Source: Thysanoteuthis rhombus
Taxonomy: Eukaryota; Mollusca; Cephalopoda; Oegopsida; Thysanoteuthidae
Assembly: GCA_963457665.1 (NCBI GenBank)
Contig: OY735211.1
Span: 39,100,217 to 39,164,216 of the forward strand
Direction of reading: 5' to 3'
DNA length: 64,000 bases
Under the pieces are notes generated by a model. That model was not told the origin of the DNA. It was given only the letters and a program-made list of their open reading frames with translations, and ran no database searches. The translations under genes were made by a program, and so were the position numbers. Below are positions 1-62,563 of this stretch, in pieces. The first letter of the stretch is position 1. Each line of letters begins with the position of its first letter.

Positions 1-3000
1 TGTAGGCACCGTCGTTGGTACACTTGTTGGCTCATTGGTTTGAATAGTTGTTGGAATTGTTGTTGGTACAGTGGTTGGAATAGTTGTTGGTACAGTTGTA
101 GGTATTGTTGTTGGAATCGTTGTTGGCACGGTTGTTGGAATTGTTGTTGGTACAGTAGTAGGAACTGTCGTCGGAACTGTTGTTGGAATTGTTATTGGCA
201 CACTGGTAGTAATTGTTGTTGGCACAGTGGTTGGAATAGTTGTTGGTAAAGTTGTAGGTATTGTGGTCGGAATTGTCGTTGGCACAGTGGTTGGGACTGT
301 GGTTGGCACAGTGGTTGGAATCGTTGTTGGTACAGTAGTAGGAACTGTCGTCGGAACTGTTGTTGGAATTGTTATTGGCACACTGGTAGTAATTGTTGTC
401 GGCACAGAAGTTGGAATAGTTGTTGGTACAGTTGTAGGTACTGTGGTTGGAATTGTGGATGGCACAGTGGTTGGGACTGTGGTTGGAATAGTTGTTGGAA
501 TTGTTGTTGGTACAGTAGTAGGAACTGTCGTCGGAACTGTTGTTGGAATTGTTATTGGCACACTGGTAGTAATTGTTGTTGGCACTGTGGTTGGAATAGT
601 TGTTGGTACAGTTGTAGCTATTGTGGTCGGAATTGTCGTTGGCACAGTGGTTGGGACTGTGGTTGGCACAGTGGTTGGAATCGTTGTTGGTACAGTAGTA
701 GGAACTGTCGTCGGAACTGTTGTTGGAATTGTTATTGGCACACTGGTAGTAATTGTTGTTGGCACAGTGGTTGGAATAGTTGTTGGTACAGTTGTAGGTA
801 TTGTGGTCGGAATTGTCGTCGGCACAGTGGTTGGGACTGTGGTTGGCACAGTGGTTGGAATGGTTGTTGGTACAGTAGTAGGAACTGTCGTCGGAACTGT
901 TGTTGGAATTGTTATTGGCACACTGGTAGTAATTGTTGTTGGCACAGTGGTTGGAATAGTTGTTGGTACAGTTGTAGGTATTGTGGTCGGAATTGTCGTT
1001 GGCACAGTGGTTGGGACTGTGGTTGGAATAGTTGTTGGAATTGTTGTTGGTACAGTAGTAGGAACTGTCGTCGGAACTGTTGTTGGAATTGTTATTGGCA
1101 CACTGGTAGTAATTGTTGTTGGCACAGTGGTTGGAATAGTTGTTGGTACAGTTGTAGGTATTGTGGTCGGAATTGTCGTTGGCACAGTGGTTGGGACTGT
1201 GGTTGGCACAGTGGTTGGAATCGTTGTTGGTACAGTAGTAGGAACTGTCGTCGGAACTGTTGTTGGAATTGTTATTGGCACACTGGTAGTAATTGTTGTC
1301 GGCACAGAAGTTGGAATAGTTGTTGGTACAGTTGTAGGAATTGTGGTCGGAATTGTCGTTGGCACAGTGGTTGGGACTGTGGTTGGAATAGTTGTTGGAA
1401 TTGTTGTTGGTACAGTAGTAGGAACTGTCGTCGGAACTGTTGTTGGAATTGTTATTGGCACACTGGTAGTAATTGTTGTTGGCACAATGGTTGGAATAGT
1501 TGTTGGTACAGTTGTAGGTATTGTGGTCGGAATTGTCGTTGGCACAGTGGTTGGGACTGTGGTTGGCACAGTGGTTGGAATCGTTGTTGGTACAGTAGTA
1601 AGAACTGTCGTCGGAACTGTTGTTGGAATTGTTATTGGCACACTGGTAGTAATTGTTGTTGGCACAGAAGTTGGAATAGTTGTTGGTACAGTTGTAGGTA
1701 TTGTGGTTGGAATTGTGGATGGCACAGTGGTTGGGACTGTGGTTGGAATAGTTGTTGGAATCGTTGTTGCTACTGTAGTAGGAACTGTCGTCGGAACTGT
1801 TGTTGGAATCGTTGTTGGCACTGTTGTTGGATTAGTTGTTGGTAAAGTAGTGGGCAATGTTGTTGGTACAGTTGTAGGCACCGTCGTTGGTACACTTGTT
1901 GGCTCATTGGTTTGAATAGTTGTTGGAATTGTTGTTGGTACAGTGGTTGGAATAGTTGTTGGTACAGTTGTAGGTATTGTTGTTGGAATAGTTGTTGGTA
2001 AAGTAGTGGGAACTGTCGTCGGAACTGTTGTTGGAATTGTTATTGGCACACTGGTAGTAATTGTTGTTGGCACAGTGGTTGGAATAGTTGTTGGTAAAGT
2101 TGTAGGTATTGTGGTCGGAATTGTCGTTGGCACAGTGGTTGGGACTGTGGTTGGCACAGTGGTTGGAATCGTTGTTGGTACAGTAGTAGGAACTGTCGTC
2201 GGAACTGTTGTTGGAATTGTTATTGGCACACTGGTAGTAATTGTTGTCGGCACAGAAGTTGGAATAGTTGTTGGTACAGTTGTAGGTATTGTGGTTGGAA
2301 TTGTGGATGGCACAGTGGTTGGGACTGTGGTTGGAATAGTTGTTGGAATTGTTGTTGGTACAGTAGTAGGAACTGTCGTCGGAACTGTTGTTGGAATTGT
2401 TATTGGCACACTGGTAGTAATTGTTGTTGGCACTGTGGTTGGAATAGTTGTTGGTACAGTTGTAGCTATTGTGGTCGGAATTGTCGTTGGCACAGTGGTT
2501 GGGACTGTGGTTGGCACAGTGGTTGGAATCGTTGTTGGTACAGTAGTAGGAACTGTCGTCGGAACTGTTGTTGGAATTGTTATTGGCACACTGGTAGTAA
2601 TTGTTGTTGGCACAGTGGTTGGAATAGTTGTTGGTACAGTTGTAGGTATTGTGGTCGGAATTGTCGTTGGCACAGTGGTTGGGACTGTGGTTGGAATAGT
2701 TGTTGGAATTGTTGTTGGTACAGTAGTAGGAACTGTCGTCGGAACTGTTGTTGGAATTGTTATTGGCACACTGGTAGTAATTGTTGTTGGCACAGTGGTT
2801 GGAATAGTTGTTAGTACAGTTGTAGGTATTGTGGTCGGAATTGTCGTCGGCACAGTGGTTGGGACTGTGGTTGGAATAGTTGTTGGAATTGTTGTTGGTA
2901 CAGTAGTAGGAACTGTCGTCGGAACTGTTGTTGGAATTGTTATTGGCACACTGGTAGTAATTGTTGTTGGCACAGTGGTTGGAATAGTTGTTGGTACAGT

Positions 3001-6000
3001 TGTAGGTATTGTGGTCGGAATTGTCGTTGGCACAGTGGTTGGGACTGTGGTTGGCACAGTGGTTGGAATCGTTGTTGGTACAGTAGTAGGAACTGTCGTC
3101 GGAACTGTTGTTGGAATCGTTGTTGGCACACTGGTAGTAATTGTTGTCGGAACAGAAGTTGGAATAGTTGTTGGTACAGTTGTAGGAATTGTGGTCGGAA
3201 TTGTCGTTGGCACAGTGGTTGGGACTGTGGTTGGAATAGTTGTTGGAATTGTTGTTGGTACAGTAGTAGGAACTGTCGTCGGAACTGTTGTTGGAATTGT
3301 TATTGGCACACTGGTAGTAATTGTTGTTGGCACAGTGGTTGGAATAGTTGTTGGTACAGTTGTAGGTATTGTGGTCGGAATTGTCGTTGGCACAGTGGTT
3401 GGGACTGTGGTTGGCACAGTGGTTGGAATCGTTGTTGGTACAGTAGTAAGAACTGTCGTCGGAACTGTTGTTGGAATTGTTATTGGCACACTGGTAGTAA
3501 TTGTTGTTGGCACAGAAGTTGGAATAGTTGTTGGTACAGTTGTAGGTATTGTGGTTGGAATTGTGGATGGCACAGTGGTTGGGACTGTGGTTGGAATAGT
3601 TGTTGGAATCGTTGTTGCTACTGTAGTAGGAACTGTCGTCGGAACTGTTGTTGGAATCGTTGTTGGCACTGTTGTTGGAATAGTTGTTGGTAAAGTAGTG
3701 GGCAATGTTGTTGGTACAGTTGTAGGCACCGTCGTTGGTACACTTGTTGGCTCATTGGTTTGAATAGTTGTTGGAATTGTTGTTGGTACAGTGGTTGGAA
3801 TAGTTGTTGGTACAGTTGTAGGTATTGTTGTTGGAATCGTTGTTGGCACGGTTGTTGGAATTGTTGTTGGTACAGTAGTTGGCACTGTTGTTGGTACAGT
3901 TGTAGGAATTGTGGTCGGAATTGTCGTTGGCACAGTGGTTGGGACTGTGGTTGGAATAGTTGTTGGAATTGTTGTTGGTACAGTAGTAGGAACTGTCGTC
4001 GGAACTGTTGTTGGAATTGTTATTGGCACACTGGTAGTAATTGTTGTTGGCACAGTGGTTGGAATAGTTGTTGGTACAGTTGTAGGTATTGTGGTCGGAA
4101 TTGTCGTTGGCACAGTGGTTGGGACTGTGGTTGGCACAGTGGTTGGAATCGTTGTTGGTACAGTAGTAAGAACTGTCGTCGGAACTGTTGTTGGAATTGT
4201 TATTGGCACACTGGTAGTAATTGTTGTTGGCACAGAAGTTGGAATAGTTGTTGGTACAGTTGTAGGTATTGTGGTTGGAATTGTGGATGGCACAGTGGTT
4301 GGGACTGTGGTTGGAATAGTTGTTGGAATCGTTGTTGCTACTGTAGTAGGAACTGTCGTCGGAACTGTTGTTGGAATTGTTATTGGCACACTGGTAGTAA
4401 TTGTTGTTGGCACTGTGGTTGGAATAGTTGTTGGTACAGTTGTAGCTATTGTGGTCGGAATTGTCGTTGGCACAGTGGTTGGGACTGTGGTTGGCACAGT
4501 GGTTGGAATCGTTGTTGGTACAGTAGTAGGAACTGTCGTCGGAACTGTTGATGGAATTGTTATTGGCACACTGGTAGTAATTGTTGTTGGCACAGTGGTT
4601 GGAATAGTTGTTGGTACAGTTGTAGGTATTGTGGTCGGAATTGTCGTTGGCACAGTGGTTGGGACTGTGGTTGGAATAGTTGTTGGAATTGGTGTTGGTA
4701 CAGTAGTAGGAACTGTCGTCGGAACTGTTGTTGGAATTGTTATTGGCACACTGGTAGTAATTGTTGTTGGCACAGTGGTTGGAATAGTTGTTGGTACAGT
4801 TGTAGGTATTGTGGTCGGAATTGTCGTTGGCACAGTGGTTGGGACTGTGGTTGGCACAGTGGTTGGAATCGTTGTTGGTACAGTAGTAGAAACTGTCGTC
4901 GGAACTGTTGTTGGAATTGTTATTGGCACACTGGTAGTAATTGTTGTCGGCACAGAAGTTGGAATAGTTGTTGGTACAGTTGTAGGTATTGTGGTTGGAA
5001 TTGTGGATGGCACAGTGGTTGGGACTGTGGTTGGAATAGTTGTTGGAATTGTTGTTGGTACAGTAGTAGGAACTGTCGTCGGAACTGTTGTTGGAATTGT
5101 TATTGGCACACTGGTAGTAATTGTTGTTGGCACTGTGGTTGGAATAGTTGTTGGTACAGTTGTAGGTATTGTGGTCGGAATTGTCGTTGGCACAGTGGTT
5201 GGGACTGTGGTTGGCACAGTGGTTGGAATCGTTGTTGGTACAGTAGTAGGAACTGTCGTCGGAACTGTTGTTGGAATTGTTATTGGCACACTGGTAGTAA
5301 TTGTTGTCGGCACAGAAGTTGGAATAGTTGTTGGTACAGTTGTAGGTATTGTGGTTGGAATTGTGGATGGCACAGTGGTTGGGACTGTGGTTGGAATAGT
5401 TGTTGGAATCGTTGTTGCTACTGTAGTAGGAACTGTCGTCGGAACTGTTGTTAGAATCGTTGTTGGCACGGTTGTTGGAATTGTTGTTGGTACAGTAGTT
5501 GGCACTGTTGTTGGTACAGTTGTAGGAATTGTGGTCAGAATTGTCGTTGGCACAGTGGTTGGGACTGTTGTTGGCACAGTGGTTGGAATCGTTGTTGGTA
5601 CAGTAGTAGGAACTGTCGTCGGAACTGTTGTTGGAATTGTTATTGGCACACTGGTAGTAATTGTTGTTGGCACAGAAGTTGGAATAGTTGTTGGTACAGT
5701 TGTAGGTATTGTGGTTGGAATTGTGGATGGCACAGTGGTTGGGACTGTGGTTGGAATAGTTGTTGGAATCGTTGTTGCTACTGTAGTAGGAACTGTCGTC
5801 GGAACTGTTGTTGGAATCGTTGTTGGCACTGTTGTTGGAATAGTTGTTGGTAAAGTAGTGGGCAATGTTGTTGGTACAGTTGTAGGCACCGTTGTTGGTA
5901 CACTTGTTGGCTCATTGGTTTGAATAGTTGTTGGAATTGTTGTTGGTACAGTGGTTGGAATAGTTGTTGGTACAGTTGTAGGTATTGTTGTTGGAATCGT

Positions 6001-9000
6001 TGTTGGCACGGTTGTTGGAATTGTTGTTGGTACAGTAGTTGGCACTGTTGTTGGTACAGTTGTAGGAATTGTGGTCGGAATTGTCGTTGGCACAGTGGTT
6101 GGGACTGTGGTTGGAATAGTTGTTGGAATTGTTGTTGGCACAGTAGTAGGAACTGTCGTCGGAACTGTTGTTGGAATTGTTATTGGCACACTGGTAGTAA
6201 TTGTTGTTGGCACAGTGGTTGGAATAGTTGTTGGTACAGTTGTAGCTATTGTGGTCGGAATTGTCGTTGGCACAGTGGTTGGGACTGTGGTTGGAATAGT
6301 TGTTGGAATTGTTGTTGGTACAGTAGTAGGAACTGTCGTCGGAACTGTTGTTGGAATTGTTATTGGCACACTGGTAGTAATTGTTGTTGGCACAGTGGTT
6401 GGAATAGTTGTTGGTACAGTTGTAGGTATTGTGGTCGGAATTGTCGTCGGCACAGTGGTTGGGACTGTGGTTGGCACAGTGGTTGGAATGGTTGTTGGTA
6501 CAGTAGTAGGAACTGTCGTCGGAACTGTTGTTAGAATTGTTATTGGCACACTGGTAGTAATTGTTGTCGGCACAGAAGTTGGAATAGTTGTTGGTACAGT
6601 TGTAGGAATTGTGGGTGGAATTGTGGATGGCACAGTGGTTGGGACTGTGGTTGGAATAGTTGTTGGAATCGTTGTTGCTACTGTAGTAGGAACTGTCGTC
6701 GGAACTGTTGTTAGAATCGTTGTTGGCACGGTTGTTGGAATTGTTGTTGGTACAGTAGTTGGCACTGTTGTTGGTACAGTTGTAGGAATTGTGGTCGGAA
6801 TTGTCGTTGGCACAGTGGTTGGGATTGTAGTTGGAATAGTTGTTGGAATTGTTGTTGGTACAGTAGTAGGAACTGTCGTCGGAACTCTTGTTGGAATTGT
6901 TATTGGCACACTGGTAGTAATTGTTGTTGGCACAGAAGTTGGAATAGTTGTTGGTACAGTTGTAGGTATTGTGGTTGGAATTGTGGATGGAACAGTGGTT
7001 GGGACTGTGGTTGGAATAGTTGTTGGAATCGTTGTTGCTACTGTAGTAGGAACTGTCGTCGGAACTGTTGTTGGAATTGTTGTTGGCACAGTTGTTGGAA
7101 TTGTTGTTGGTACAGTAGTTGGCACTGTTGTTGGTATAGATGTAGGTATTGTGGTTGGAATTGTTGTTGGCGCAGTGGTTGGGACTGTTGTTGGTACAGT
7201 AGTTAGTACAGTTGTAGGTATTGTGGTTGGAATTGTCGTTGGCACAGTGGTTGGGACTGTGGTTGGAATAGTTGTAGGAATCGTTGTTGGTACCGTAGTA
7301 GGAACCGTCGTCGGAACTGTTGTTGGAATTGTTGTTGGCACAGTGGTTGGAATAGTTGTTGGTACAGTTGTAGGTATCGTAGTTGGAATTGTGGTTGGCA
7401 CAGTGGTTGGGACTGATGTTGGAATAGTTGTAGGAATCGTTGTTGGTACAGTAGTTGGTACAGTGGTTAAAACAGTTGTTGGTACTGTAGTGGGAACTGT
7501 CGTTGGAACTGTTGTTGGAATTGTTGTTGGCACAGTGGTTGGAATAGTTGTTGGTACAGTTGTAGGTATTGTGGTTGGAATTGATGTTGGCACAGTGGTT
7601 GGGACGGTGGTTGGAATAGTTGTTGGAATTGTTGTTGGCACTGTTGTTGGAATAGTTGTTGGTAAAGTACTGGGCAATGTTGTTGGTACAGTTGTAGGCA
7701 CCGTTGTTGGTACACTTGTTGGCTCATTGGTTTGAATAGTTGTTGGAATTGTTGTTGTTACAGTGGTTGGAATAGTTGTTGGTACAGTTGTAGGTATTGT
7801 TGTTGGAATCGTTGTTGGCACGGTTGTTGGAATTGTTGTTGGTACAGTAGTTGGCACTGTTGTTGGTACAGTTGTAGGAATTGTGGTTGGAATTGTTGTT
7901 GGCACAGTGGTTGGAATTGTTGTTGGTACAGTAGTTGGCACAGTGGTCGGAATAGTTGTTGGTACTGTAGTAGGCACTGTCGTTGGAACTGTTGTTGGAA
8001 TCGTTGTTGGCACAGTGGTTGGAATAGTTGTTGGTACAGTTGTAGGTATTGTGGTTGGAATTGTTGTTGGCACCGTGGTTGGGACTGTGGTTGGAGTGGT
8101 TGTTGGAATCGTTGTTGGTACTGTAGTAGGAACCGTCGTCGGAACTGTTGTTGGAATCGTTGTTGGCACCGTTGTTGGAATTGTTGTTGATACAGTAGTT
8201 GGCACTGTTGTAGGTACAGTTGAAGGTATTGTGGTTGGAATTGTTGTTGGCACACTGGTTGGAATTGTTGTTGGTACGGTAGTTGGCACAATGGTTGGAA
8301 TTGTTGTTGGAACAGTTATTGGTACTGTAGTAGGAACTGTCGTCGAAACTGTTGTTGGAATTGTTATTGGCACACTGGTAGTAATTGTTGTTGGCACAGT
8401 GATTGGAATAGTTGTTGGTACAGATGTAGGTATTGAGGTCGGAATTGTTGTTGGCGCAGTGGTTGGGACTGTGGTTGGAATAGTTGTCGGTACAGTTGTA
8501 TGTATTGTGGTTGGAATTGTCGTTGGCACAGTGATTGGGACTGTGGTTGGAATAGTTGTAGGAATCCTTGTTGGTACCGTAGTAGGAACTGTCGTCGGAA
8601 CTGTTGTTGGAATTGTTGTTGGCACTGTTGTTGGAATTGTTGGTGGTACAGTAGTTGGCAATGTTGTTGGTACAGTTGTAGGTATTGTGGTTGGAATTGT
8701 TGTTGGTACAGTAGTTGATACAGTGGTTGGAACAGTTGTTGGTACTGTAGTGGGAACTGTCGTTGGAACTGCTGTTGGAATTGTTGTTGGCACAGTGGTT
8801 GGAATAGTTGTTGGTACAGTTGTAGGTATTGTCGTTGGAATTGATGTTGGCACAGTGGTTGGGACGGTGGTTGGAATAGTTGTTGGAATTGTTGTTGGCA
8901 CTGTTGTTGGAATAGTTGTTGGTAAAGTAGTGGGCAATGTTGTTGGTACAGTTGTAGGCACCGTTGTTGATACAGTTGTTGGCTCAGTGGTTGGAATAGT

Positions 9001-9296
9001 TGTTGGTACTGTCGTAGGCACCGTCGTTGGTACAGTTGTAGGTATTGTGGTTGGAATTGTTGTTGGTATGGTAGTTGGCACAGTGGTTGGAATAGTTGTT
9101 GCTACTGTAGTAGGCACTGTTGTTGGAATTGTTGTTGGTACAGTAGTAGGCACTGTTGTTGGTAAAGTGGTGGGTATTGTGCTCAGAATTGTTGGTGGCC
9201 CAGTGGTTGGAATTGTTGTTGGTATGGTAGTAGGCACTGTTGTTGGTACAGTAGTTGGAATAGTTGTTGGTACCGTAGTTGGAATCGATGTCGATT
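1..9296 (-). CDS. Mucin mega-exon (Pro-Thr-Thr-Ile/Val repeats), partial, runs off left edge
   Basis: Read on the minus strand, this stretch is one open frame of at least 3,098 codons made of four-residue units PTTI/PTTV (12 bp each). Such a Thr/Pro backbone is the known substrate for mucin-type O-glycosylation, so a secreted gel-forming or glycocalyx protein is inferred. No stop codon was found in this frame by eye, and all unit counts between landmarks are multiples of 12 bp, so there is no frameshift. The proposed acceptor is CTATTCTGGCCACAG at 9311-9297, and the exon then starts in phase 1, the same phase as the 13,303 donor upstream (GAG A + AA TCG gives E-K-S). The exon start reads STSIPTT. 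Rare non-repeat motifs such as IQTNEPTSVPTT and PTTITTSVPITIPTT punctuate it. There are no Cys and almost no charged residues. The 3' splice donor or stop lies outside the window. Strand and coding status rest on frame, phase and analogy to the 49.3-54.5 kb exon. Confidence 0.8.
1..9296. repeat. 12-bp tandem array with 180-bp and about 1.3-2.2-kb higher-order repeats
   Basis: The base unit is 12 bp (plus strand GTTGTTGGAATT / GTAGTTGGTACA types). A 180-bp (15-unit, 60-codon) higher-order repeat is plain: the same line recurs at 181, 361, 541, 721, 901, 1081, 1261, 1441 and 1621. A larger repeat is marked by GGCTCATTGG at about 31, 1903, 3751, 5911 and 7723, with a degenerate form near 8983, giving spacings of 1872, 1848, 2160, 1812 and 1260 bp. 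All of these are multiples of 12, so the coding frame is kept. Copies are nearly identical in the left four superunits and more diverged to the right of about 7.0 kb, which suggests recent amplification toward the left. Confidence 0.95.
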
Positions 9297-9439
9297 CTGT
9301 GGCCAGAATAGTTGTAGTTATTGTGTGCATAAATGGTTTTGAATACATTAATACACAAAGATATATAATCATGATCACCACATATGTATATATATACATT
9401 CAATTTTGATTTCGTGACATCCACTGAATCCATAGCTTA
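9297..9439. other. Intron start between mega-exon and Penelope-like element
   Basis: AT-rich sequence upstream (on the minus strand) of the proposed mega-exon acceptor. It carries the pyrimidine-containing tract and TAACTAC-like branch-point candidates. No coding signal of its own is visible; minus-strand Asn/Tyr-rich frames reading through here are shadows of the array. Confidence 0.5.
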
Positions 9440-10820: not shown

Positions 10821-10829
10821 ATTATATAT

Positions 10830-11470: not shown

Positions 11471-11471
11471 C

Positions 11472-13302: not shown

Positions 13303-13435
13303 TCTCTTTCCCACAAAGCTTGACACTGAGTTCTATCTTCACTTTTTTCCCGCTTTTTTTCTTCTTAATCGTAATTTCAAGCATTTCCAATTCAACTAAT
13401 TGTGGTAATTTCACTGTAGACCTTGGTTTGACATC
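13303..13435 (-). CDS. Exon: C-terminal half of Cys-flanked F5/8C-like domain (copy 2)
   Basis: A 133-bp exon, phase 0 in and phase 1 out. Acceptor TTTAATTACAG ends at 13,436; donor GTGAGT starts at 13,302. It encodes 44 residues beginning DVKPRSTVKLPQ and ending KIELSVKLCGKE, then the split codon A|AA into the 9,296 mega-exon. The closing V-x-I-E-L-S-V-x-x-C strand resembles the end of F5/8C (discoidin) domains, which finish with a hydrophobic strand and a Cys paired to the first Cys. It has exactly the same length and phases as the exon at 62,431-62,563 and aligns to it without gaps (16 of 44 identical, including P4, T7-V8, LPQ at 10-12, IELSV and the Cys). The Lys-rich centre (IKKKKSGKK) is its own feature. 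Probably extracellular. The family assignment is inference. Confidence 0.85.
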
Positions 13436-15470: not shown

Positions 15471-15474
15471 CACA

Positions 15475-16180: not shown

Positions 16181-16199
16181 ACGATCTATCAAGAACTGC

Positions 16200-38456: not shown

Positions 38457-38461
38457 CTCTC

Positions 38462-40325: not shown

Positions 40326-40344
40326 ACTTTAAATTCTTTTTTGA

Positions 40345-45862: not shown

Positions 45863-45929
45863 CATAATATTTGTATTATATTATCATGTTATTCTTCATA
45901 AGCCATCAAAATTGTAAAATGAAATTATT

Positions 45930-47440: not shown

Positions 47441-47444
47441 TCTC

Positions 47445-49326: not shown

Positions 49327-52300
49327 CTGTTGTTGACGCATGTGTGGGTGGAGATGTTGGTGTAGTTGTTGGAATTGTAGTTGGTATGGTTGTTGGAATT
49401 GTAGTTGGTACTGTTGTTGGAATTGTAGTTGGTACTGTTGTTGGAATTGTAGTTGGTAGGGTTGTTGGAATTGTAGTTGGTACCGTTGTTGGAATTGTAG
49501 TTGCCACCGTTGTTGGGACTGTAGTTGGTATGGTCGTTGGAATTGTAGTTGGTATTGTCGTTGGAATTGTTGTTGGAACTGTAGTTGGTACGGTCGTGGG
49601 AATTGTAGTTGGTATGGTTGATGAGATTGTATGTGGTATGGTTGTTGGAACTGTAGTTGGTATGGTTGTTGGAACTGTAGTTGGTATGGTTGTTGGAATC
49701 GTAATTGGTATGGTTGTCGTGATTGCAGGTAGTACAGTCGTTCGGATTATTTGTTCTATGGTTGGTAGAGTTGTATTTAGTACTGTTGTTGGAATAGTAG
49801 TTGGTATGGTTGTTGGAATGGTAGTTGGTATGGTTGTTGGAATCGTAGTTGGTATGGTTGTTAGAATTGTAGTTGGTATGGTTGTTGGAATTGTAGTTGG
49901 TACAGTTGTTGGAATTGTAGTTGGTACTGTTGTTGGAATTGGATGTGATATGGTTGTTGGAATTGTAGTTGGTACAGTTGTTGGAATTGTAGTTAGTACA
50001 GTTGTTGGAATTGTAGTTGGAACTGTAGTTGGTATGGTTGTTGGAACTGTAGTTGGTACTGTTGTTGGAACTGTAGTTGGTATGGTTGTTGGAACTGTAG
50101 TTGGTATAGTTGTTGGAATTGTAGTTGGTACTGTTGTTGGAATTGATGTTGGTATGGTTGTTGGAATTGTATGAGGAATGGTTGGTACAGTTGTTGGAAT
50201 GGTAGTTGGTACGGTTGTTGGAATCGTAGTTGGTATGGTTGTTGGAATTGTAGTTGGTATGGTTGTTGGAATTGTAGTTGGTATGGTTGTTTGAATGGTA
50301 GTTGGTATGGTTGTTGGAACTGTAGTTGGTATGGTTGTTGGAATTGTAGTTGGTATGGTTGTTGGAATTGTAGTTGGTATTGTTGTTGGAATTGTAGTTG
50401 GTATGGTTGTTGGAATTGTATGTGGTATGGTCGTTGGAATTGTAGTTGGCACAGTTGTTGGAATTGTAGTTGGTATTGTTGGAATTGTAGTTGGCACCGT
50501 TGTTGGAATTGTAGTTGGTACAGTCGTTGGAATTGTAGTTGGTATGGTTGTTGGAATTGTAGTTGGTATAGTTGTTGGGATTGTATGAGGAATGGTTGGT
50601 ACAGTTGTTGGAATGGTAGTTGGTACGGTTGTTGGAATCGTAGTTGGTATGGTTGTTGGAATTGTAGTTGGTATGGTTGTTGGAATAGTAGTTGGTACAG
50701 TCGTTGGAATTGTAGTTGGTACAGTTGTTGGAATTGTAGTAGGTACGGTTGTTGGAACTGTAGTTGGTATGGTTGTTGGAACTGTAGTTGGTATGGTTGT
50801 TGGAATCGTAGTTGGTATAGTCGTTGGAATTGTAGTTGGTACTGTTGTTGGAATTGTAGTTGGTACTGTTGTTGGAATTGGATGTGATATGGTTGTTGGA
50901 ATTGTAGTTGGTACAGTTGTTGGAATTGTAGTTGGAACTGTAGTTGGTATGGTTGTTGGAACTGTAGTTGGTATGGTTGTTGGAATTGTAGTTGGTACAG
51001 TCGTTGGAATTGTAGTTGGTACAGTTGTTGGAATTGTAGTAGGTACGGTTGTAGGAACTGTAGTTGGTATGGTTGTTGGAACTGTAGTTGGTATGGTTGT
51101 TGGAATCGTAGTTGGTATAGTTGTTGGAATTGTAGTTGGTACTGTTGTTGGAATTGTAGTTGGTACTGTTGTTGGAATTGGATGTGATATGGTTGTTGGA
51201 ATTGTAGTTGGTACAGTTGTTGGAATTGTAGTTGGAACTGTAGTTGGTATGGTTGTTGGAACTGTAGTTGGTATGGTTGTTGGAACTGTAGTTGGTATGG
51301 TTGTTGGAACTGTAGTTGGTATAGTTGTTGGAATTGTAGTTAGTACTGTTGTTGGAATTGATGTTGGTATGGTTGTTGGAATTGTATGAGGAATGGTTGG
51401 TACAGTTGTTGGAATGGTAGTTGGTACGGTTGTTGGAATCCTAGTTGGTATGGTTGTTGGAATCGTAGTTGGTATGGTTGTTGGAATTGTAGTTGGTATG
51501 GTTGTTTGAATGGTAGTTGGTATGGTTGTTGGAACTGTAGTTGGTATGGTTGTTGGAACTGTAGTTGGTATGGTTGTTGGAATTGTAGTTGGTATGGTTG
51601 TTGGAATTGTAGTTGGTATTGTTGTTGGAATTGTAGTTGGTATGGTTGTTGGAATTGTAGTTGGTATTGTTGGAATTGTAGTTGGCACCGTTGTTGGAAT
51701 TGTAGTTGGTATTGTTGTTGGAATTGTAGTTTGTATGGTTGTTGGAATTGTAGTTGGTATAGTTGTTGGGATTGTATGAGGAATGGTTGGTACAGTTGTT
51801 GGAATGGTAGTTGGTACGGTTGTTGGAATCGTAGTTGGTATGGTTGTTGGAATTGTAGTTGGTATGGTTGTTGGAATAGTAGTTGGTACAGTCGTTGGAA
51901 TTGTAGTTGGTACAGTTGTTGGAATTGTAGTAGGTACGGTTGTTGGAACTGTAGTTGGTATGGTTGTTGGAACTGTAGTTGGTATGGTTGTTGGAATCGT
52001 AGTTGGTATAGTCGTTGGAATTGTAGTTGGTACTGTTGTTGGAATTGTAGTTGGTACTGTTGTTGGAATTGGATGTGATATGGTTGTTGGAATTGTAGTT
52101 GGTACAGTTGTTGGAATTGTAGTTGGAACTGTAGTTGGTATGGTTGTTGGAACTGTAGTTGGTATGGTTGTTGGAATTGTAGTTGGTACAGTCGTTGGAA
52201 TTGTAGTTGGTACAGTTGTTGGAATTGTAGTAGGTACGGTTGTTGGAACTGTAGTTGGTATGGTTGTTGGAACTGTAGTTGGTATGGTTGTTGGAATCGT

Positions 52301-54477
52301 AGTTGGTATAGTTGTTGGAATTGTAGTTGGTACTGTTGTTGGAATTGTAGTTGGTACTGTTGTTGGAATTGGATGTGATATGGTTGTTGGAATTGTAGTT
52401 GGTACAGTTGTTTGAATTGTAGTTGGAACTGTAGTTGGTATGGTTGTTGGAACTGTAGTTGGTATGGTTGTTGGAACTGTAGTTGGTATAGTTGTTGGAA
52501 TTGTAGTTGGCACCGTTGTTGGAATTGTAGTTGGTACTGTTGTTGGAATCGATGTTGGTATGGTTGTTGGAATTGTATGAAGAATGGTTGGTACAGTTGT
52601 TGGAATGGTAGTTGGTATGGTTGTTGGAATTGTAGTTGGTATGGTTGTTGGAATTGTAGTTGGTACAGTCGTTGGAACTGTAGTTGGTATGGTTGTTGGA
52701 ATTGTAGTTGGTATAGTTGTTGGAATTGTAGTTGGTACTGTTGTTGGAATTGGATGTGATATGGCTGTTGGAATTGTAGTTGGTATGGTTGTTGGAATTG
52801 TAGTTGGTATGGTTGTTTGAATGGTAGTTGGTATGGTTGTTCGAACTGTAGTTGGTATGGTTGTTGGAACTGTAGTTGGTATGGTTGTTGGAATTGTAGT
52901 TGGTATAGTTGTTGGAATTGTAGTTGGTATAGTTGTTGGGATCGTAGTTGGCACCGTTGTTGGAATAGTAGTTGGTATGGTTGTTTGAATGGTGGTTGGT
53001 ATAGTTGTTGGAATCGTAGTTGGTACGGTTGTTGGAATTGTAGTTGGTACTGTTGTTGGAATAGTTGTTGGAACTGTAGTTGGTATGGTTGTTGGAATTG
53101 TAGTTGGTACAGTTGTTGGAATTGTTGTTGGTATGGTTGTTGGAATTGTAGTTGGAACTATAGTTGGTATGGTTGTTGGAACTGTAGTTGGTATGGTTGT
53201 TGGAATCGTAGTTGGCACAGTTGTTGGAATTGTAGTTGGCACCGTTGTTGGAATTGTAGTTGGTACTGTTGTTGGAATTGATGTTGGTATGGTTGTTGGA
53301 ATTGTATGAGGAATGGTTGGTACAGTTGTTGGAACTGTAGTTGGTACGGTTGTTTGAATCGTAGTTGGTATGGTTGTTGGAATTGTAGTTGGTATGGTTG
53401 TTGGAATTGTAGTTGGTATGGTTGTTGGAATTGTAGTTGGTACAGTTGTTGGAATTGTAGTTGGTACAGTTGTTGGAATTGTAGTAGGTACGGTTGTTGG
53501 AACTGTAGTTGGTATTGTTGTTGGAACTGTAGTTGGTATGGTTGTTGGAATTGTAGTTGGTACAGTTGTTGGAATTGTAGTTGGTACTGTTGTTGGAATT
53601 GTAGTTGGTACTGTTGTTGGAATTGTAGTTGGCACCGTTGTTGGAATTGTAGTTGGTACTGTTGTTGGAATTGATGTTGGTATGGTTGTTGGAATTGTAG
53701 TTGGTATGGTTGTTGGAACCGCAGTTGGTATGGTTGTTGGAATTGTAGTTGGTATGGTTGTTGGAATTGTAGTTGGTATGGTTGTTGGAATTGTATGTGG
53801 TATGGTCGTTGGAATTGTAGTTGGCACAGTTGTTGGAATTGTAGTTGGTATGGTTGGAATTGTAGTTGGCACCGTTGTTGGAACTGTAGTTGGTATGGTT
53901 GTTGGAATCGTAGTTGGTATGGTTGTTGGAATGGTAATTGGTATAGTTGTTGGAATCGTAGTTGGTACGGTTGTTGGAATTGTAGTTGGTACTGTTGTTG
54001 GAATCGTAGTTGGTACAGTTGTTGGAATTGTAGTTGGTATGGTTGTCGGAATTGTAGTTGGTATAGTTGTTGGAATCGTAGTTTGTATGGTTGTTGGAAT
54101 TGTAGTTGGTACGGTCGTGGGAATTGTAGTTGGTATGGTTGTTTGAATAGTAGTTGGTGTAGTTGTTGGAATTGTAGTTGGTATAGTTGTTGGAATTGTA
54201 GTTGGTACTGTTGTCGGTATGGTTGTTGGAATTGTAGTTGGTATGGTTGTTGGAATTGTAGTTGGTACAGTTGTTGGAATTGTAGTTGGTTTGGTGGTTG
54301 GAATTGTTGTGGGTATTGTTGTTGGAATAGACGTGGGTACAGTTGTTGGTATAGTAGTCGGTGTGGTTGGTCGAACTGTAGTCAGTATGGATGTTTGAAC
54401 TGTAGTTGGTATGGTTGTTAGTACAGTCGTTAGAAGTGTAGTCGGTATGGTTGTTGGAAGTGTACTTGGTACAGTTG
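49327..54477 (-). CDS. Mucin mega-exon of 5,151 bp (Pro-Thr-Thr-Ile/Val repeats)
   Basis: A single open minus-strand frame. The acceptor is CATATTTCAAACATAG ending at 54,478 and the donor is CAACAACAG|GTATTT at 49,327/49,326. The exon is 5,151 bp (1,717 codons' worth) and symmetric, phase 1-1. It starts ATVPSTLPTTIPTT and ends TPTSPPTHASTT. The body is PTTI/PTTV with rare variants: IPHTIPTT, ISHPIPTT, IPTIPTT, IQTT and one non-repeat stretch near 49.7-49.8 kb (VLNTTLPTIEQIIRTTV) containing an N-x-T sequon. No Cys. Thr makes up about half of the residues, the composition of heavily O-glycosylated mucin domains. The frame continues past both splice sites, upstream to an ATG at 54,544 and downstream to a TAA near 49,313, but the flanking sequence is not repeat-like and the splice sites are good, so I place the exon ends there. 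Confidence 0.87.
49360..54460. repeat. 12-bp tandem array with about 1.2-kb higher-order duplication
   Basis: The plus-strand unit is GTTGTTGGAATT / GTAGTTGGTATG. The landmark TTGTATGAGGAATGGTTGG (or a close variant) recurs near 50,167, 50,584, 51,384, 51,774, 52,574 and 53,304. The alternating spacing of about 400 and 800 bp shows a roughly 1.2-kb block (50,167-51,384) duplicated almost exactly at 51,384-52,574. Edges (49.36-49.8 and 53.7-54.5 kb) are more diverged than the centre, as expected for unequal exchange. The array family differs from the left one in its common variants (more TATG, fewer ACTGTCGTCGG units). Confidence 0.92.
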
Positions 54478-56780
54478 CTATGTTTGAAATATGAAATAAT
54501 TGAATATAATAATTTTCATTATGTTTTGATTTTATATGCAACATAGATTCATGAAATCATTTTAAACTTTTTTATATTGTGTTTTGACTTGAATACAAAA
54601 TATTCCCTCCAAAATTGCATATCCCTCGTATGTCATATAAATGCAAAATGATCATGTTTAATGTATTTCAAATCATCTGGTACATGTTTTGATCCTTTTT
54701 TTATGCACTAAAAACCCTTAACTTTAGAACTTGGCTAAGTTACAGCACAAACTATACCATTGATGTTCCTATTTTCGTTTGATGAAATCATCATCGCATC
54801 ACCAGTCCTGAGGATTATACTTTTGATTTCTCCTTTGTGACATCAAGGTATTGTTAAATACATAAAAAATATTCTTAAATGTTATATAACAGGCAATAAT
54901 CGATTAACTTTCCATTACATTAAATACATATTTGTGCAACTTGAATGATTTGTTGTTTATCACATGTCATTATTTATAATTTAATCAGTATTTTATTGTT
55001 GTTATCAAAATAATCAGAAATTCATTTTAGGAAACTAATTACTCAAACATTATATATTTTTTAAAAAACCTTAACCCAAAGCAAAATGATAATGATTTCT
55101 ACTAATATGTTTTATAATGTCCTGAGTATATCCAATGTGACATTATGTCAAGTTATTCAGTAATACTTGAGCACAGAATGCTTTACTTTACCATGTATTA
55201 TGCAATGTATTTATATAGTTTGATGCAAACATAACATTTGAACTCAATGCACAATGTTATCCAAGTGTAGAATTTGTAATTAAGAAAAATCCTTATTATT
55301 TATGAAAGAATGAAAGTAATATAAAAAAATTCATTGATCAACCTAATTATTTTTCCTTTTTTTTTTTCTAAAAAAAGGGTGTATTGGCTTTATCATAATT
55401 TATTTATTGGTTCACTGCTGGTAAATTAAGTGAATACCTTCTGCCACCAGAATAAGGCACTTGGAGACTGACTTCCAGTATCAAAATGAGGCTCTCATCA
55501 AGTAACTTCCATTATGGCTATGACGAGTATGGGATTTTATGGACATTTATAGACATTTCTATGAGGAGTATCATTGATAAATTTGTTAGTTACTGATGAT
55601 TGTTAATATCATATGGAGCCCCCCCTAAAACATTTCTATAGCACGTGTTCATGGGAATACGACAACGAAGATCTAAAAAGAAAGATATTTATTCCAAGAC
55701 AACTTTTCAAGAATACCTTGAAAAGTTTATTACCATCATATAGATTTTTTTAAAGTATCCCTTAATCAATAAGATTCCCTGGAAGTTGAAATGCAGAATA
55801 TTTTCATAGTTTTCCAAATAATAAGAGATACCAAAGAATATTTACTCTATTTGACAGAGATCAGATCAAATAATAGTTTGAAGAAGAAAGATTCTTTTAT
55901 ATTTCAAAATGATTTAAAAATGAATAGAAAAGAAATGTGAGTCAAAGAGGAAATTTTTACTGTAGTTTCCTGTAGAAATGTAACTTCCTAATTTTGATTT
56001 AAAATAGCAATAATTATTACAATTGATGTTGATTTATCTAAACTTTTGTCATCGAAAATATTCATAGAAAATACACCTATTCATTCATTGTACTACCATC
56101 CATAAATCTATAGATTGTAACCATTTCATATAAAAAAATACTCAATAAAACATAATGCTTGTCAACAGCATTGAAAAGATCAAGTGATTTTTCTTAGATT
56201 TAAATAATGCTATACCTATTATCCAAATTATCACTGAAAGTCATCTGAATATTTTATAGATGATATAAAAGTGCATTAGTGTGCATGCATGTGTGTGAAG
56301 GAAAGAGAATTGATTCTATATCAAATCACATAATGCTTCCCAGGTCACACTCTCAGATTCCACTTAAAAAATCACAGGTACTCCTATACTAAACTTATGG
56401 AGAAATACAAAATATTAGGTCTGTAACACTAATAGTTTTAAAATCTAAAATCCTAGAGATCCACTCAATTTCATGCATTTTGCTGAACGAACCTTTCCAT
56501 CTAATCTCTGACTTTTATAGCTTCTTTGATAGGGCATGAAGAACTTCGAAATTTTGTGAGTAAGGCTTTCAATAACATTCAGAATTATAAGCAGATCAGG
56601 TGTATTTTCTGTAATTTCACCTCTACAAGGCTCTGAAAATTACCAGAAATCACAAATGTAAAAAGGCGATGTCCACTTTGAGAGTTCCTCACTCACACAG
56701 TATGCTGTATAAAGATCTTATAGTTTTTTTTCTATCATTCATAACATAATAGGTCATGTGTATGCAGTAACCATACTTAT
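54478..56780. other. Intron, AT-rich, no feature recognised
   Basis: Low-complexity AT-rich sequence upstream of the mega-exon acceptor. No splice-bounded frame, repeat family or RNA gene was recognised. Confidence 0.45.
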
Positions 56781-56789
56781 AACTGTTTT

Positions 56790-58065
56790 AGGAGTATCAG
56801 AATGATTGTTCGAAATGTGCTCAATTTTGGTCCCCCAGGGATGGGATTGAAAAAAAACTTTTTTCCTGGCCTCAAAGAGGAGCATATATGCAAATTTTCA
56901 AGTCTTTACATTGTACATGGTGTTCTGTGTCTGCAGCTGATAGATTGATTGATAGTACCTGCCCCCTTCCCTGTGCCAAGTCCAGACACGACAAAAGTAA
57001 TAGTGCCTATCGCTCTACAAACCATTTGTACCACAGCAACCTACCCTCCTTTTCCTCTCTGTACCTTACTCCTGCCAAAACCAGGAATAAAATTTATTGG
57101 GCAAAAATGTCTGAATTGTCAAAAAAAAACAAGTAAGAATTCCATTGGACACAAACTAAGGGACAAATTTTGGAAAAACTTACATTGCAGATCGAACCCG
57201 CCTCTGAAATAACTAGGGTGAGGTAGGGGATTAAAAAAAACAAACAATTTCTCTTGTTCCCCAAGAGGATTATGTGTGCAAAGTTTCAAATCTCTACAAT
57301 GAACTGTATGTTTTGTGCCAGTTGATGGGAAAAGAAATGGTACCAACCACTTTACCATTTGTATGACAACAACCTCCATCCCCTCAGTTTATTCAAAATA
57401 CATTGAAGATATAAGATAGATAGGTAAACAAGTATGAATTACAGTGGACACAAAATAAAGGTTCAATTTAAGATAAACTTACGTTGCAGATTGAACCCCC
57501 TTTTAAAAAGCTATTCAGGGGAAATTTAACAAAAAAATATTTTTCATGGTCCTTGAGAAGAATTTGTGTGCGAAATTTCAAGTCCTTGCAATGAACAATA
57601 TGTTCTGTGCTAAGAGCTAATACATAGATAGACAGATAGTACCTAATCCACTCTTCTATACCAATTCCAGGTACATAGAAGATGGTGAAAATTAAAGCTT
57701 TTACAAAAATAATAGTACTTAACACTCTACTATCCATTTGTACAACAGCAACCTGCTCCCTGCCCTGTCCACGTGCCTCTCTTGTGCCCCTCTGTGTTCT
57801 CCTTGTGCCAAGTGCAGATACACAGAAAATTATTCGGCTGAGAACACTACAAATGTAAATTCTGTTGGACATAAATTAGGGGAGCAATTTAGAGGAAACT
57901 TACATGGCAAATTGAATTCCACCAAGAAAAAACAATCAAAAGGTGGATCTTTTTAAAAACAAAAAATCATTTTCCCTCATTCTTGAGAGTAGCACGTGTG
58001 CAAAATTTCAACTCTCAATGAATGGTGTGGTCAGTGTCAAGGGCTAATTCATAGTGTTTACTTAA
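56790..58065. repeat. Diverged tandem repeat, about 290-430-bp units, at least three and a half units
   Basis: The block TGTGTGCAAAGTTTCAAATC and its variants recur near 56,890, 57,274, 57,565 and 57,990, followed each time by a GTGTTCTGTGTC/GTTCTGTGCTAAG-like word, a CCATTTGTACAACAGCAACC-like word and a TTGGACACAAACTAAGG-like word. Two overlapping ORF pairs in it (near 56,888-57,212 and 57,468-57,956) only reflect this repeat. Confidence 0.8.
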
Positions 58066-58242
58066 TATAAGAATCCCCTAAACCTGAAAACATTGTTGGA
58101 ACTTGTTGTCTCAGAGCTGGTGGTGGTTAATAGCTGAAAATAAAGATATTTTTTGCCAAAATTCAACTATTATTTCATAAATTTCTCTCAACACTTTTCA
58201 AATAATTTCATTAGAAATTCATTTAATGTGTATCAATAAATC

Positions 58243-59013
58243 CGTAGCTTCAGTTGCAGTTTTCAATCTGAACCAATGTGCAGCTTTCTTGATTTGTTTT
58301 CAGCCCGAATGAATGTGCAGCTTTCTTAATTTGTTCTCCATCTGAACCAACATGCAGCTTTCTTCATTTTTTCAATCCCAAACAATGTGCACCTTTCTTA
58401 ATTTATTTTCAATTTGGACAAATGTGCACCTTTCTCACTTTGTTTTCAATCTTAATCATTGTGCAGCTTTGTCAATTTGTTTTCAATCTGAAACAATATG
58501 AAACTTCCTTAATTTCATTCCAAGCTGAGTCAAGGTGCAGCTCTCTCAATTTCTTTTCGAGCTGAGACAATGTGCAGCTTTCTTGATTTGTCTTCAATCT
58601 AAACCAATGTGCAACTGTCTTAATTTGTTTTCAAGTTGAACTGATATAAAGCTTTCTTGATTTGTTTTCCATTTGAACTAATGTGCGGGTTTTCAATCTG
58701 TTTCCAATCTGAACCAATGTGCAGCTGTCTTGATTTATTTTCAACCTAAATAAAAGTGTAGCTGTATAAATTTGTTTTTGATCTAATCCAAGCCTCTTTC
58801 TCAATTTATGATCAATCTGAGCTAATGTGCAGCTTTTTTTATTTATTTTTGATGTGAACCAATGTGCAATTGATTAAGAAAGCTGCACATTTGTTCAGAT
58901 CGAAAACATATCAAGAAAAGGTGCACATTGCTTTTTCAATTTTATTTGTTTTCATTCTGAACCAGTGTGCAACTTCTTTGATTTGGTTTCAATCTGAACC
59001 AGTGTGCAGCTTT
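58243..59013. repeat. Minisatellite, about 37-bp unit, roughly 20 diverged copies, with an inverted segment
   Basis: The consensus is built on AATGTGCAGCTTTCTTGATT then TGTTTTCAATCTGAACC. Copies are about 37 bp with many substitutions and small indels. Between about 58,868 and 58,930 the unit is in the opposite orientation (AAGAAAGCTGCACATT), then the forward orientation resumes. Confidence 0.88.
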
Positions 59014-59822
59014 AAAAAAAGACAGCAATGACATTAGAGTTCATAGTTTTATTGTTAAGTTGAAAATGAGGCGATGGTTTGAAGGTCTTTTATCCTCATA
59101 ATTTCAACAAGATAGACTAGTAAATGACGGCATGAATTTGTTGATTATACCTGATGTTGAGTTTGTGAAGTTAAAAAGCTTTACTCAAGTTAATTCAATC
59201 TTGAAAGTTGTTTGTTGAAAAGATGTTTCTAATTAAGATTGAGTCATCTTGATACCTTCTCCAGGGTCCCCAAATCAGTTTAGCCAACAAAAAATATTTC
59301 GGTGATAGTTTAATTTTAAAAAGTGCTTAATTTGAAAAATAGCCTAAAATGGCAAAATGGGCCCAAAAGATGCTTTAAATGGTCAAATAGTGGCCAAAAT
59401 GTTTATATACACATGCTGATTTATTGCTTTTTTGCACTGACAAAGAAAGAAAAGTGCTAAATTAGCAATACTACCCTAATTAAGGAGTGCATCAATTGCT
59501 TCTGATGATGTGTTAGTAATTTTAACCAGGGTTTTGATTGACTGGTCGTCTGTCCAATTTATCAGTGGAAGGACCTCTTAGAAGGGCCACAACATCAATA
59601 TCACCTGGTGATAAAGTTCTAGTGTCCAACAACTTTCTCCTTTCAAGTGTGGTCAAATGTATTCAGAGAAAATAATTTACACATATTCACTTTAGGGCTA
59701 AATTAATTAGGTTAGCTACTAAATTGATAATGTTACTTATTAAGTCAAAAGTGAAGAAAAAACTTTACTCAGTAAAAGATTTTTTTTCTGACTGGATTTG
59801 TAGAAAAATGAGTCAAACCTAC
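59014..59822. other. Intron, no clear feature
   Basis: AT-rich. A 46-codon minus-strand open frame at about 59,524-59,661 (HLTTLERRKLLDTRTLSPGD then DIDVVALLRG) looks protein-like but ends in TAA, has no good acceptor and is not recognised; possibly a mobile-element scrap. Confidence 0.35.
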
Positions 59823-59861
59823 CTTCTGTCGTAGGAATAAGAGTTGTAACACTAGGAGTAG
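59823..59861 (-). CDS. 39-bp Thr/Pro mini-exon of the mucin gene
   Basis: Bounded by acceptor ATCTTCTTCACAG (ending at 59,862) and donor GTAGGT (starting at 59,822). Symmetric phase 1-1, 13 codons' worth, reading (x)TPSVTTLIPTTE(G). It fits between the 62,431 donor (ATA A + CT gives T) and the 54,477 acceptor (G + CA gives A), giving ...CQEI-T-TPSVTTLIPTTE-A-TVPSTLPTT. Same Thr/Pro character as the mega-exons but without tandem repeats. Short length makes it the least certain exon. Confidence 0.7.
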
Positions 59862-59990
59862 CTGTGAAGAAGATCATAAGAAGTTCAATAAATAATTCCA
59901 TTCATAAGAGATTGAAAATGCAAATGTTATGGCTACTTTGAGTCTTAATCGGAATTATCATTTTTCTGTTTGCTTTTTCAGTAATTTTAG

Positions 59991-59995
<5 letters not shown>

Positions 59996-60030
<35 letters not shown>
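59996..60030. repeat. (TA)n microsatellite
   Basis: About 17 uninterrupted TA units. Confidence 0.97.
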
Positions 60031-60034
<4 letters not shown>

Positions 60035-60439
60035 TTAATCTAATTCACAATAAATAATTTGATACACAAACAGTTGAAAAAAAAAAATGCAAGATGCAGC
60101 GCATCTGATTCATATTACTTCCATATGTGACCTTGAAGAATAATTTGTATTACTGGTAACCTGTTTAAGCAGCTAAAGGCTTTATGAAAAAAACAGCCAT
60201 TTGCTTTGTGCATCATGGATGTCATTAAACATAGTTTTTATAAAAGATAAAAGGGGCTTTGAGGGGGTTTCTATTTATTACATGACCATAATGCTGAATT
60301 GGACCCCCAGTGTCTTGTTTCTAATAAGGAAACGCTGTGATGTCATTTTAGAAAGCTTATTCTGTCCACATTTATTCCTTGAAATTTTTCTTACTTGACT
60401 TCATATTGAAATCACACTACTTTTTACAAGTTCTTTTTC

Positions 60440-60600
60440 TTTTATAGGTGTCAAATTAAAATCATAAGATTAGCTCTCAATTTTGCTTTTAGTTGTCAAA
60501 ATTGGTTGTAATTTTTTTACTTTTAGGGGAAAAAATCAAGGAATAGATTTTTTTTCACTTTCAGGGGTCAAAATCAAGAGGGAATATGAACATTTAAAGT
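60440..60600. repeat. GGGGTCAAAATCAAG repeat, block 1
   Basis: About three diverged units of TTTCAGGGGTCAAAATCAAG with T-rich spacers. The same unit is found again at 61,555-62,060, so one older array has been split or seeded twice. Confidence 0.75.
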
Positions 60601-60949
60601 AACTAAATTTGGTATATATAATTTTAAGGATAACATTTCAAACAAAATAATATTCTCTGTTTTATTCTTTCGTTTTTTTAAATTTTTAACACTTAGATTA
60701 ACTTTACATGAGATTTTTACGATAATTTTTTTCCATGCAGAAAAAAACTTCTGTGTATTTACTGTTAATATCTATCTATTCATTTACTCTGTTTACATTA
60801 TCATGTTCATTGACAGAATAATTTCAGCAGTCTATACTATATTTTTGTTGGAAAAACAAATCTATTAAATCTTTCAAATCATAAAAATATTTTGATTTTA
60901 GTATTATTTACCTATGTCAATGCAATTGAAAAGAGGTATATAAATTTGG

Positions 60950-61420
60950 TTTCATCTGTCCATTGATCTGTCTACACAATACCTCTAAAAATACTGAATG
61001 AATTTCAATTAAATTTTGTAAAATGATGAGCAATTGGGTGAGATAGAGACAGCAAAATTTGGGGGTGAATCCAGGAAACTTTTTTCAATTGAGAGATATT
61101 TTTCCAGTTTTCTTGAAAATCATATTTATGCTCAAGCTCATGAATGTCCACACAATATCGTAAAAAGTTCTCTATCTTGATAGGCTTTAGCTAAAGAGAG
61201 CTGATTCAATTTTGGTGTGGTTCCACACACAATTATCTCCGCAACATCATTGATTTATGTCACAAACACATAATATTTCATGTTTGTCCACACAATATCT
61301 GTAAAAGTTCTTTATGAATTTCAATGATATTGTGTGGAAGAGTGGACAATAAGCTATGGAAGAACTGATTACATTTGGGGTTGGATCCATACACAATTAC
61401 TCTCCCTGACAGTAGCATTA
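60950..61420. repeat. Diverged tandem repeat, about 130-190-bp unit, three units
   Basis: TGTCCACACAATATC(T)GTAAAA and following ATGAATTTCAAT blocks recur near 60,970, 61,147 and 61,287, each followed by a TTTGGGGTTGGATCCA-like word. It lies between the two GGGGTCAAAATCAAG blocks. Confidence 0.75.
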
Positions 61421-61554
61421 GTAAAGTTATGTGCTCTCTGAGTGCTTTCTTGTTTTTTATTCTTAAATTTAAGAATTGAAAGTAACTTGTATTAAACTTA
61501 ATGGACTTTTTTTGTATGACTTCATTTTCTCACAACACTAATTTTTGGTAAGCT

Positions 61555-62060
61555 CTCATTTTTCCAATTACCAGGGATTGAATGTTAATCAAATTATATG
61601 AAGGGAACCTTTACTTTTTCATTTAGGAGTCAAAATCAAAGAGATTTTTTATTCAAAAAAAGGTTCAAAATTAAGGAATTTTTTCCCCTCATTTAAGGGT
61701 CAAAATCTAAGTGGAATTTATTTTTTCCAATTCAAAATTCAAAGTTCTTTCACACTTAGGGGTCAAAATTAAGGTGAAGATTTTTTCCCACTTTTCCTAG
61801 GTCAAATTCTGAAGGCTACTCTTTTTCCAATTTTTATGGTTGAAAATTAAGGGAGAATTAATTTCATTTTTAGGGGTCAAAATCAAGTTTCTTTCCTTGG
61901 TGGCAAAATTGTGCTAGAATTTTTTACTTTCAGTGGTAGAAATCAAGGGCAATTTGTTTTTTTCTGCTTTTAAGGGTTAAAATTGGGATGGGGGAAATTT
62001 TTCTTCTGCTTATGTTGTCAAAAGCATTAGGGAACTATTTCTCTCTCTCAAGGGTTTACA
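61555..62060. repeat. GGGGTCAAAATCAAG repeat, block 2
   Basis: About eight to nine diverged units, spaced roughly 50-60 bp, of TTAGGGGTCAAAATCAAG with T-rich spacers. Confidence 0.8.
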
Positions 62061-62430
62061 GCAAGGGGAAACAGTGTTGTTATATTTGCATTTTTTTTCC
62101 CCTGTAGAAAACACCAGGTATTACTGCTAGTATTATATAAACTCCAATTAATAGTAACAATAGCAATGCCATTGTTAGTATCTTTTTCTTTTTTTTTTTT
62201 ACATGTAACAGTAATCATAGGACTTAATTCTCTCCCTAATGATCATTTCAAGTGTATATTTTTTTTTAAATTTTCACAATTGAAAATGTTTCAAGCAACT
62301 TTTTCCTTGAAATATTATGTGGTAACTTTACTAAATGTTTTTAAACTTAATTATGAAGTGAATATTTCTTCTCATAGAAATGAAAAATTGAATAAAGTAT
62401 GAAAACTTACTTAACACAATAAATACTTAC

Positions 62431-62563
62431 TTATTTCTTGACATCCTATAACACTGAGCTCAATCTCAACATCTCTTAGGGAATCAGTCTTTCGCAAATC
62501 TATTTTAATCTTTATAATGCTTGAATTTTGTGGCAAATATACAGTTTGATCTGGTGAAATATT
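62431..62563 (-). CDS. Exon: C-terminal half of Cys-flanked F5/8C-like domain (copy 1)
   Basis: A 133-bp exon, phase 0 in and phase 1 out. Acceptor ATTATACTTTCCTTCAG ends at 62,564; donor GTAAGT starts at 62,430. It encodes 44 residues starting NISPDQTVYLPQNSS and ending VEIELSVIGCQEI, closing with the I-E-L-S-V-I-G-C strand that is close to the 'RVELLGC' end of F5/8C domains. Same length and phases as 13,303-13,435 and an ungapped alignment to it, so the two are paralogous units of one protein or of tandem genes. Its partner first-half exon is not found between 62.6 and 64.0 kb and presumably lies beyond the right edge. It feeds in phase into the 59,861 mini-exon. Confidence 0.87.

Follow-up and report, generated by a model that had tools for sequence, protein, structure and literature searches.

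Predicted exons of a very large mucin-like protein on the minus strand of a Thysanoteuthis rhombus contig

Giant repeat exons and described mucins

In human mucins, single exons can be very large: exon 30 of MUC2 has 8,793 bp and exon 31 of MUC6 has 12,294 bp, and mucin repeats of this kind are hard to assemble and to annotate (PMC6269512). According to the available text of the same source, the MUC2 repeat domain contains 55.5% Thr and 21.7% Pro, and the CysD domains of MUC2 sit inside the giant exon. In chicken gel-forming mucins, domains rich in Pro, Thr and Ser (PTS) alternate with CysD domains, and the accessible part of that study defines mucins by PTS together with VWD or SEA, with PTS within a single large exon (PMC1552070). 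Drosophila mucins were defined by PTS repeats alone; they range from 300 to 23,000 amino acids (aa) and many carry a PerA domain (PMC2515642, as far as its available text goes). In this study, we analyzed a stretch of 64,000 nucleotides (nt) from the squid Thysanoteuthis rhombus (assembly GCA_963457665.1, contig OY735211.1, positions 39,100,217 to 39,164,216), here called the window and numbered from its first letter. The minus strand of the window carries predicted exons for an animal protein of mucin-like (slime-type) character and very large size, and the coding reading of these exons is well supported. The predicted protein plan comprises two huge Pro-Thr-Thr (PTT) repeat blocks and small non-repeat domains.

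Six exons chain in one minus-strand frame of 5,007 codons without a stop, while the other two frames of the same chain contain 79 and 25 stops. In gene order they measure 133, 39, 5,151, 269, 133 and at least 9,296 nt. Exon A (62,431-62,563; phase 0 in, 1 out) would encode the second half of a first non-repeat domain (44 aa, one Cys), as its boundaries, its frame and its homology to the exon at 13.4 kb suggest. It is followed by a mini-exon of 39 nt (59,823-59,861; phase 1-1) encoding TPSVTTLIPTTE, with Pro, Thr or Ser at 8 of 12 residues. PTT exon 1 (49,327-54,477), here the right array, encodes PTT[I/V] repeats that add up to about 1,716 residues and is recognized by its frame, its variation pattern and its ratio of nonsynonymous to synonymous substitution rates (dN/dS). 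Exon D1 (14,114-14,382; phase 1 in, 0 out; about 90 aa, one Cys) and exon D2 (13,303-13,435; phase 0 in, 1 out; 44 aa, one Cys, homologous to exon A) form the first and second halves of a second non-repeat domain. PTT exon 2 (1-9,296), the left array, runs off the window with 3,098 residues arranged in about 50 copies of a 180-nt (60-aa) super-repeat.

AG and GT flank every exon boundary and the phases agree throughout, the 3' end of the last exon lying outside the window. A preliminary description of this DNA had proposed the same six exons, and their coordinates, boundary dinucleotides and phases are confirmed here. It had also called the splice sites good. On a generic matrix, with each site ranked against every AG or GT of the same strand, the sites are uneven: six of the eleven rank in the top 2%, four others lie between 2% and 6.2%, among them the donor at 49,327, and the acceptor at 54,477 ranks at 22.6%. 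Both sites of exon D1 are in the top 0.3%. Upstream of the six acceptors, AG-free runs of 42, 69, 87, 17, 41 and 125 nt were found in gene order, so that the matrix-weak 54,477 acceptor is preceded by 87 nt free of AG. Phase 1-1 cassettes with 10 or more residues were sought in four minus-strand intervals and, as controls, in three on the plus strand. Each minus-strand interval contained one cassette, with Pro/Thr/Ser shares of 0.67 (the mini-exon), 0.30, 0.14 and 0.12; the controls contained none, none and three (best share 0.40). At these thresholds the mini-exon is the sole such cassette within the 8 kb from 54,478 to 62,430. A 37-nt unit is repeated in tandem (58,259-58,868 and 58,940-59,012) within the intron predicted to separate the mini-exon from PTT exon 1. 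Rfam (at gathering scores) and ARAGORN gave no matches in the window.

Together the arrays account for 4,814 of the 5,007 residues of the chained fragment, above the one-third PTS share used in the available text of PMC2515642, and by that PTS-repeat definition the fragment qualifies as mucin-like. Ser and Thr make up 48.5% of the right and 49.7% of the left array, Pro 23.7% and 23.0%. Neither array contains Cys, and charged residues (Lys, Arg, Asp, Glu) occupy 8 of 3,098 positions on the left and 6 of 1,716 on the right. The preliminary description had named at least 4,800 residues as O-glycosylation substrate; the residue count stands, and O-glycosylation of the arrays would be expected from this composition. 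The repeat unit is a tetrapeptide (773 tiled units left, 428 right), above which the left array shows the 60-aa super-repeat, 51 tiled stretches agreeing with their consensus by 88% on average. Neighbouring 180-nt copies are 67-80% identical in the first twelve comparisons, near the exon start, and 70-99% identical further on; the left array thus appears to have been amplified recently in parts.

The locus resembles human MUC2 and MUC6 in having a giant repeat exon of similar scale, and chicken gel-forming mucins in alternating PTS blocks with a small domain. It differs from MUC2 and MUC6 in its tetrapeptide unit with a 60-aa super-repeat, from MUC2 also in that the domain occupies two exons of its own whereas CysD lies inside the giant exon, and from gel-forming mucins in that no VWD, CysD or cystine-knot match was found in exons A, D1 and D2 or in joined D1 and D2. 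Each array is one uninterrupted predicted exon, and a one-gene model would comprise two such exons plus the PTS-like mini-exon. Pfam, run on the domain exons and on 29 of 95 further open frames with at least 70 aa, reported neither VWD nor SEA; the chain includes neither end of the gene. With Drosophila PTS mucins the fragment shares membership based on PTS repeats and the size range; many of those carry PerA, whereas Pfam assigned no family above cut-off to the present domain. Among the papers listed by literature searches with the motif and for mollusc or cephalopod mucins, PTS exons and giant mucins, nothing was recognizable as this gene, which does not prove absence, since such motifs rarely appear in print; passages on snail mucus offered no parallel.

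Coding signature of the repeat arrays

Both arrays look coding on the minus strand. Among distinct 12-nt units, 203 of 287 differences in the left array and 129 of 199 in the right fall in third codon positions, where one third would be expected. This count excludes units with more than five differences (99 of 103 units kept and 4 dropped on the left, 66 of 67 kept and 1 dropped on the right); with every distinct unit kept, the shares become 217 of 311 (left) and 130 of 205 (right). Reading frame is also kept. In a frame-free search, all 626 occurrences of CCNACNACN in the left array and all 366 in the right fall in a single frame. Spacings between them are multiples of 12 in 625 of 625 cases on the left; on the right, 11 of 365 are exceptions, yet every one of these is divisible by three. 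As these 11 shifts fall in about four sequence contexts, they represent few independent events, which weakens this part of the argument. In the PTT frame dN/dS is 0.24 for the left array (50 neighbouring 180-nt pairs), compared with 1.12 and 3.88 in the other minus-strand frames; for the right array, compared between adjacent 24-nt stretches within 6 of its 12 register segments, the values are 0.35, 0.55 and 1.92.

In the minus-strand frame of the left array, no stop is met between 9,399 and the edge of the window; the preliminary description had noted this openness for the length of the array. Such openness is weak evidence for coding, because a single change turns none of the 15 codons for Pro, Thr, Val and Ile into a stop and an open frame therefore comes cheaply. 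When the differences were randomly re-placed over distinct units, the frame stayed free of stops in 37 of 500 runs on the left and 62 of 500 on the right. Over all units, which are copies of one another, re-placement gave on average 18.7 stops (left) and 6.6 stops (right), with 0 observed. Third-position variation and frame-keeping are thus the stronger coding evidence, which is also a practical lesson for other repeats of the PTT type.

The same cheapness of a long open frame would suit non-coding minisatellites. Another form of this alternative, a plus-strand gene with TVVG repeats, could draw on the TVVG frame of the left array, where dN/dS is 0.23 and as low as in the PTT frame; in this one array the ratio speaks against a simple reading. 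It is low because the TVVG and PTT frames both place the variable bases third. With 5 stops on the left and 14 on the right, the plus-strand TVVG frame is ruled out as one coding frame, and the minus-strand position of the non-repeat exons rules it out as well. These exons, homologous and in phase, argue together with the third-position excess and frame-keeping in the PTT frame against either version, and we regard both as highly improbable. Minus-strand coding of mucin-like composition, as claimed before, is upheld by the variation pattern, by dN/dS and by the Ser, Thr and Pro content.

The non-repeat domain and the repeated module

Homology links the half-domain exons at 62.5 and 13.4 kb, in agreement with the preliminary description. 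Over 41 aa, exons A and D2 are 39% identical, a match that has E 1.9e-5 when the window itself is searched. The alignment scores 67, compared with 52 for the best of 20,000 shuffles, none of which was as good. Identity of their DNA peaks at second codon positions (0.59, compared with 0.43 and 0.39). Both are 133 nt long, both run from phase 0 to phase 1, and downstream of both comes a giant PTT exon whose entry phase is 1. Homology, equal length and equal phases indicate that a unit made of the domain and a giant PTT exon is repeated. Such a module would consist of a 269-nt first half, a 133-nt second half and a PTT exon, the first copy having an additional mini-exon. The predicted domain thus spans about 134 residues on two exons and has one Cys near each end. 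A second copy of D1 was not found in the window (best other match E 0.35), so the missing first half of the first domain is expected past position 64,000.

Joined D1 and D2 as well as exons A, D1 and D2 were compared with Pfam up to E 10, and only sub-threshold matches were obtained, such as DLEC1 Ig-like (0.038, exon A) and DUF1829 (0.085, D1); none was used. NCBIfam, a library of bacterial and archaeal proteins, returned no family for two queries, and PDB sequences gave a single weak match, titin, at E 0.16. By these searches the domain appears to match no known family above cut-off, a point against the explanation preferred below. An AlphaFold model of D1 alone from a single sequence (mean predicted local distance difference test score 42) was discarded. 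A discoidin-like fold was also considered as a putative candidate, on the basis of a C-terminal strand pattern ending in Cys. A locus of known kind that carries an unclassified domain is the well-supported description; its exact junctions are testable, and peptides of its non-repeat domain might be looked for by proteomics.

One gene or two

On the DNA evidence, it is somewhat more likely that the two halves belong to one gene than to two. We give a slight preference to a secreted mucin-like protein of repeated modules, with both modules in one minus-strand gene. In each module, a giant Pro-Thr-Thr-Val/Ile exon would come after the two-exon domain of about 134 residues, and a 35-kb intron with much retroelement-like sequence would separate the two modules. 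The Thr-rich rods may be O-glycosylated, extended and water-holding, in keeping with a function in mucus, and the small domains would punctuate the rods and might bind or cross-link partners. The preliminary description had assigned the window to one giant gene; the exon chain within each half is supported, and the single-gene claim only in part, as the joining of the halves depends mainly on one phase match.

Several observations weigh against a single transcript. From 49,327 to 14,382 the gap measures 34,944 nt, while the other four introns range from 678 to 5,345 nt, and the phase match across it, the main basis of the link, is a one-in-three chance event. The donor at 49,327 is moderate only, ranking in the top 4.0% of GTs on the generic matrix. 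Reading through it leads to a stop at 49,315-49,313, starting 12 nt past the exon end, so that PTT exon 1 may be a terminal exon. The chain as seen includes neither a signal-peptide exon nor a C-terminus. On the minus strand of the gap, two signal-peptide-like first exons ending in phase 1 were found (35,529-35,469 and 29,632-29,503). Pfam was run on 23 of the 75 open frames of at least 70 aa lying wholly in the gap, so a host gene within it is conceivable.

These findings would fit two tandem paralogous minus-strand genes for mucin-like proteins, the first ending in or after the 5.15-kb PTT exon and the second opening inside the gap with an exon for a signal peptide that is spliced to D1 at 14,382. 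The preliminary description had named the 35-kb jump as the weakest link and this arrangement as its alternative, and we consider it a possible reading, though a less likely one than a single gene. The plus strand of the gap offers no signal-peptide-like first exon; however, both minus-strand candidates look weak by eye. Past the 5.15-kb exon, the minus strand carries seven AATAAA/ATTAAA sites within 49,312-46,800, beginning about 0.7 kb from the exon, but this is a raw count of hexamers that are common in AT-rich DNA. The identity of only 39% between the paired exons would indicate an old duplication, and the large size of the gap and its retroelement-like copies would suit separate genes. 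A terminal exon ending a few residues past the array would, on the other hand, leave that array without a following domain. A search with a two-sequence profile of exons A and D2 recognized no further module copies in the gap, a point in favour of one gene; its match at 34,360-34,536 (plus strand, E 0.046) was below the inclusion threshold and was taken as chance.

A third possible gene start, absent from the preliminary description, lies just upstream of the left array. An in-frame ATG at 9,397-9,399 (minus strand) immediately follows a stop and opens a hydrophobic leader before the array (mean Kyte-Doolittle value up to 3.2 over 9 residues). The left array could then be a gene of its own and D1-D2 the end of an upstream gene, as might also be read from the TGA met within five codons on reading through the 13,303 donor. 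The leader, however, derives from TA-rich coding sequence and lacks a basic n-region by eye; the phase-1 donor of D2 fits the 9,296 acceptor in the same order as in the first module, and this acceptor has the 125-nt AG-free run. We consider a start at 9,399 improbable.

Returning to the single gene, it is tempting to go further and to picture a gene of more than 62 kb in which Cys-free PTT[V/I] rods of more than 4,800 residues, open at the edge, alternate with an undescribed two-Cys domain. We hold this version to be doubtful. If it were true, the two-Cys domain would replace VWD and CysD as the punctuating or cross-linking unit, and the locus would represent an independently assembled giant mucin architecture.

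The gap itself is rich in retroelement-like sequence. On the plus strand, related copies span roughly 17.2-19.1, 36.5-38.4 and 41.4-41.8 kb, and an inverted one lies at 47.5-48.6 kb. A 903-nt segment occurs twice in opposite orientation (37,342-38,244 and 47,688-48,590; 99% complementary), a recent duplication or insertion. Pfam gave an RNase H match at 21,499-21,810 on the plus strand (E 5.2e-19) and, short of its cut-off, a match to reverse transcriptase at 17,925-18,218 (E 2.7e-5). Four of the five gap copies whose strand is supported by a tool are antisense to the gene, which would favour the intron reading but is not significant; in human introns, antisense orientation of retroelements is favoured, according to the available text of PMC3517506. 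Plus-strand open frames at 21,499-23,165 also look retroelement-like, beyond RNase H by putative motifs only. Elsewhere in the window, the plus-strand frames at 9.7-10.2, 29.9-34.3 (29,870-34,277), 45.4-45.9 and 63.1 kb look retroelement-like by such motifs; Pfam named none of the frames scanned at these positions. Finally, two interleaved degenerate repeat families of about 64 nt, with four copies each, occupy 15,507-16,242.
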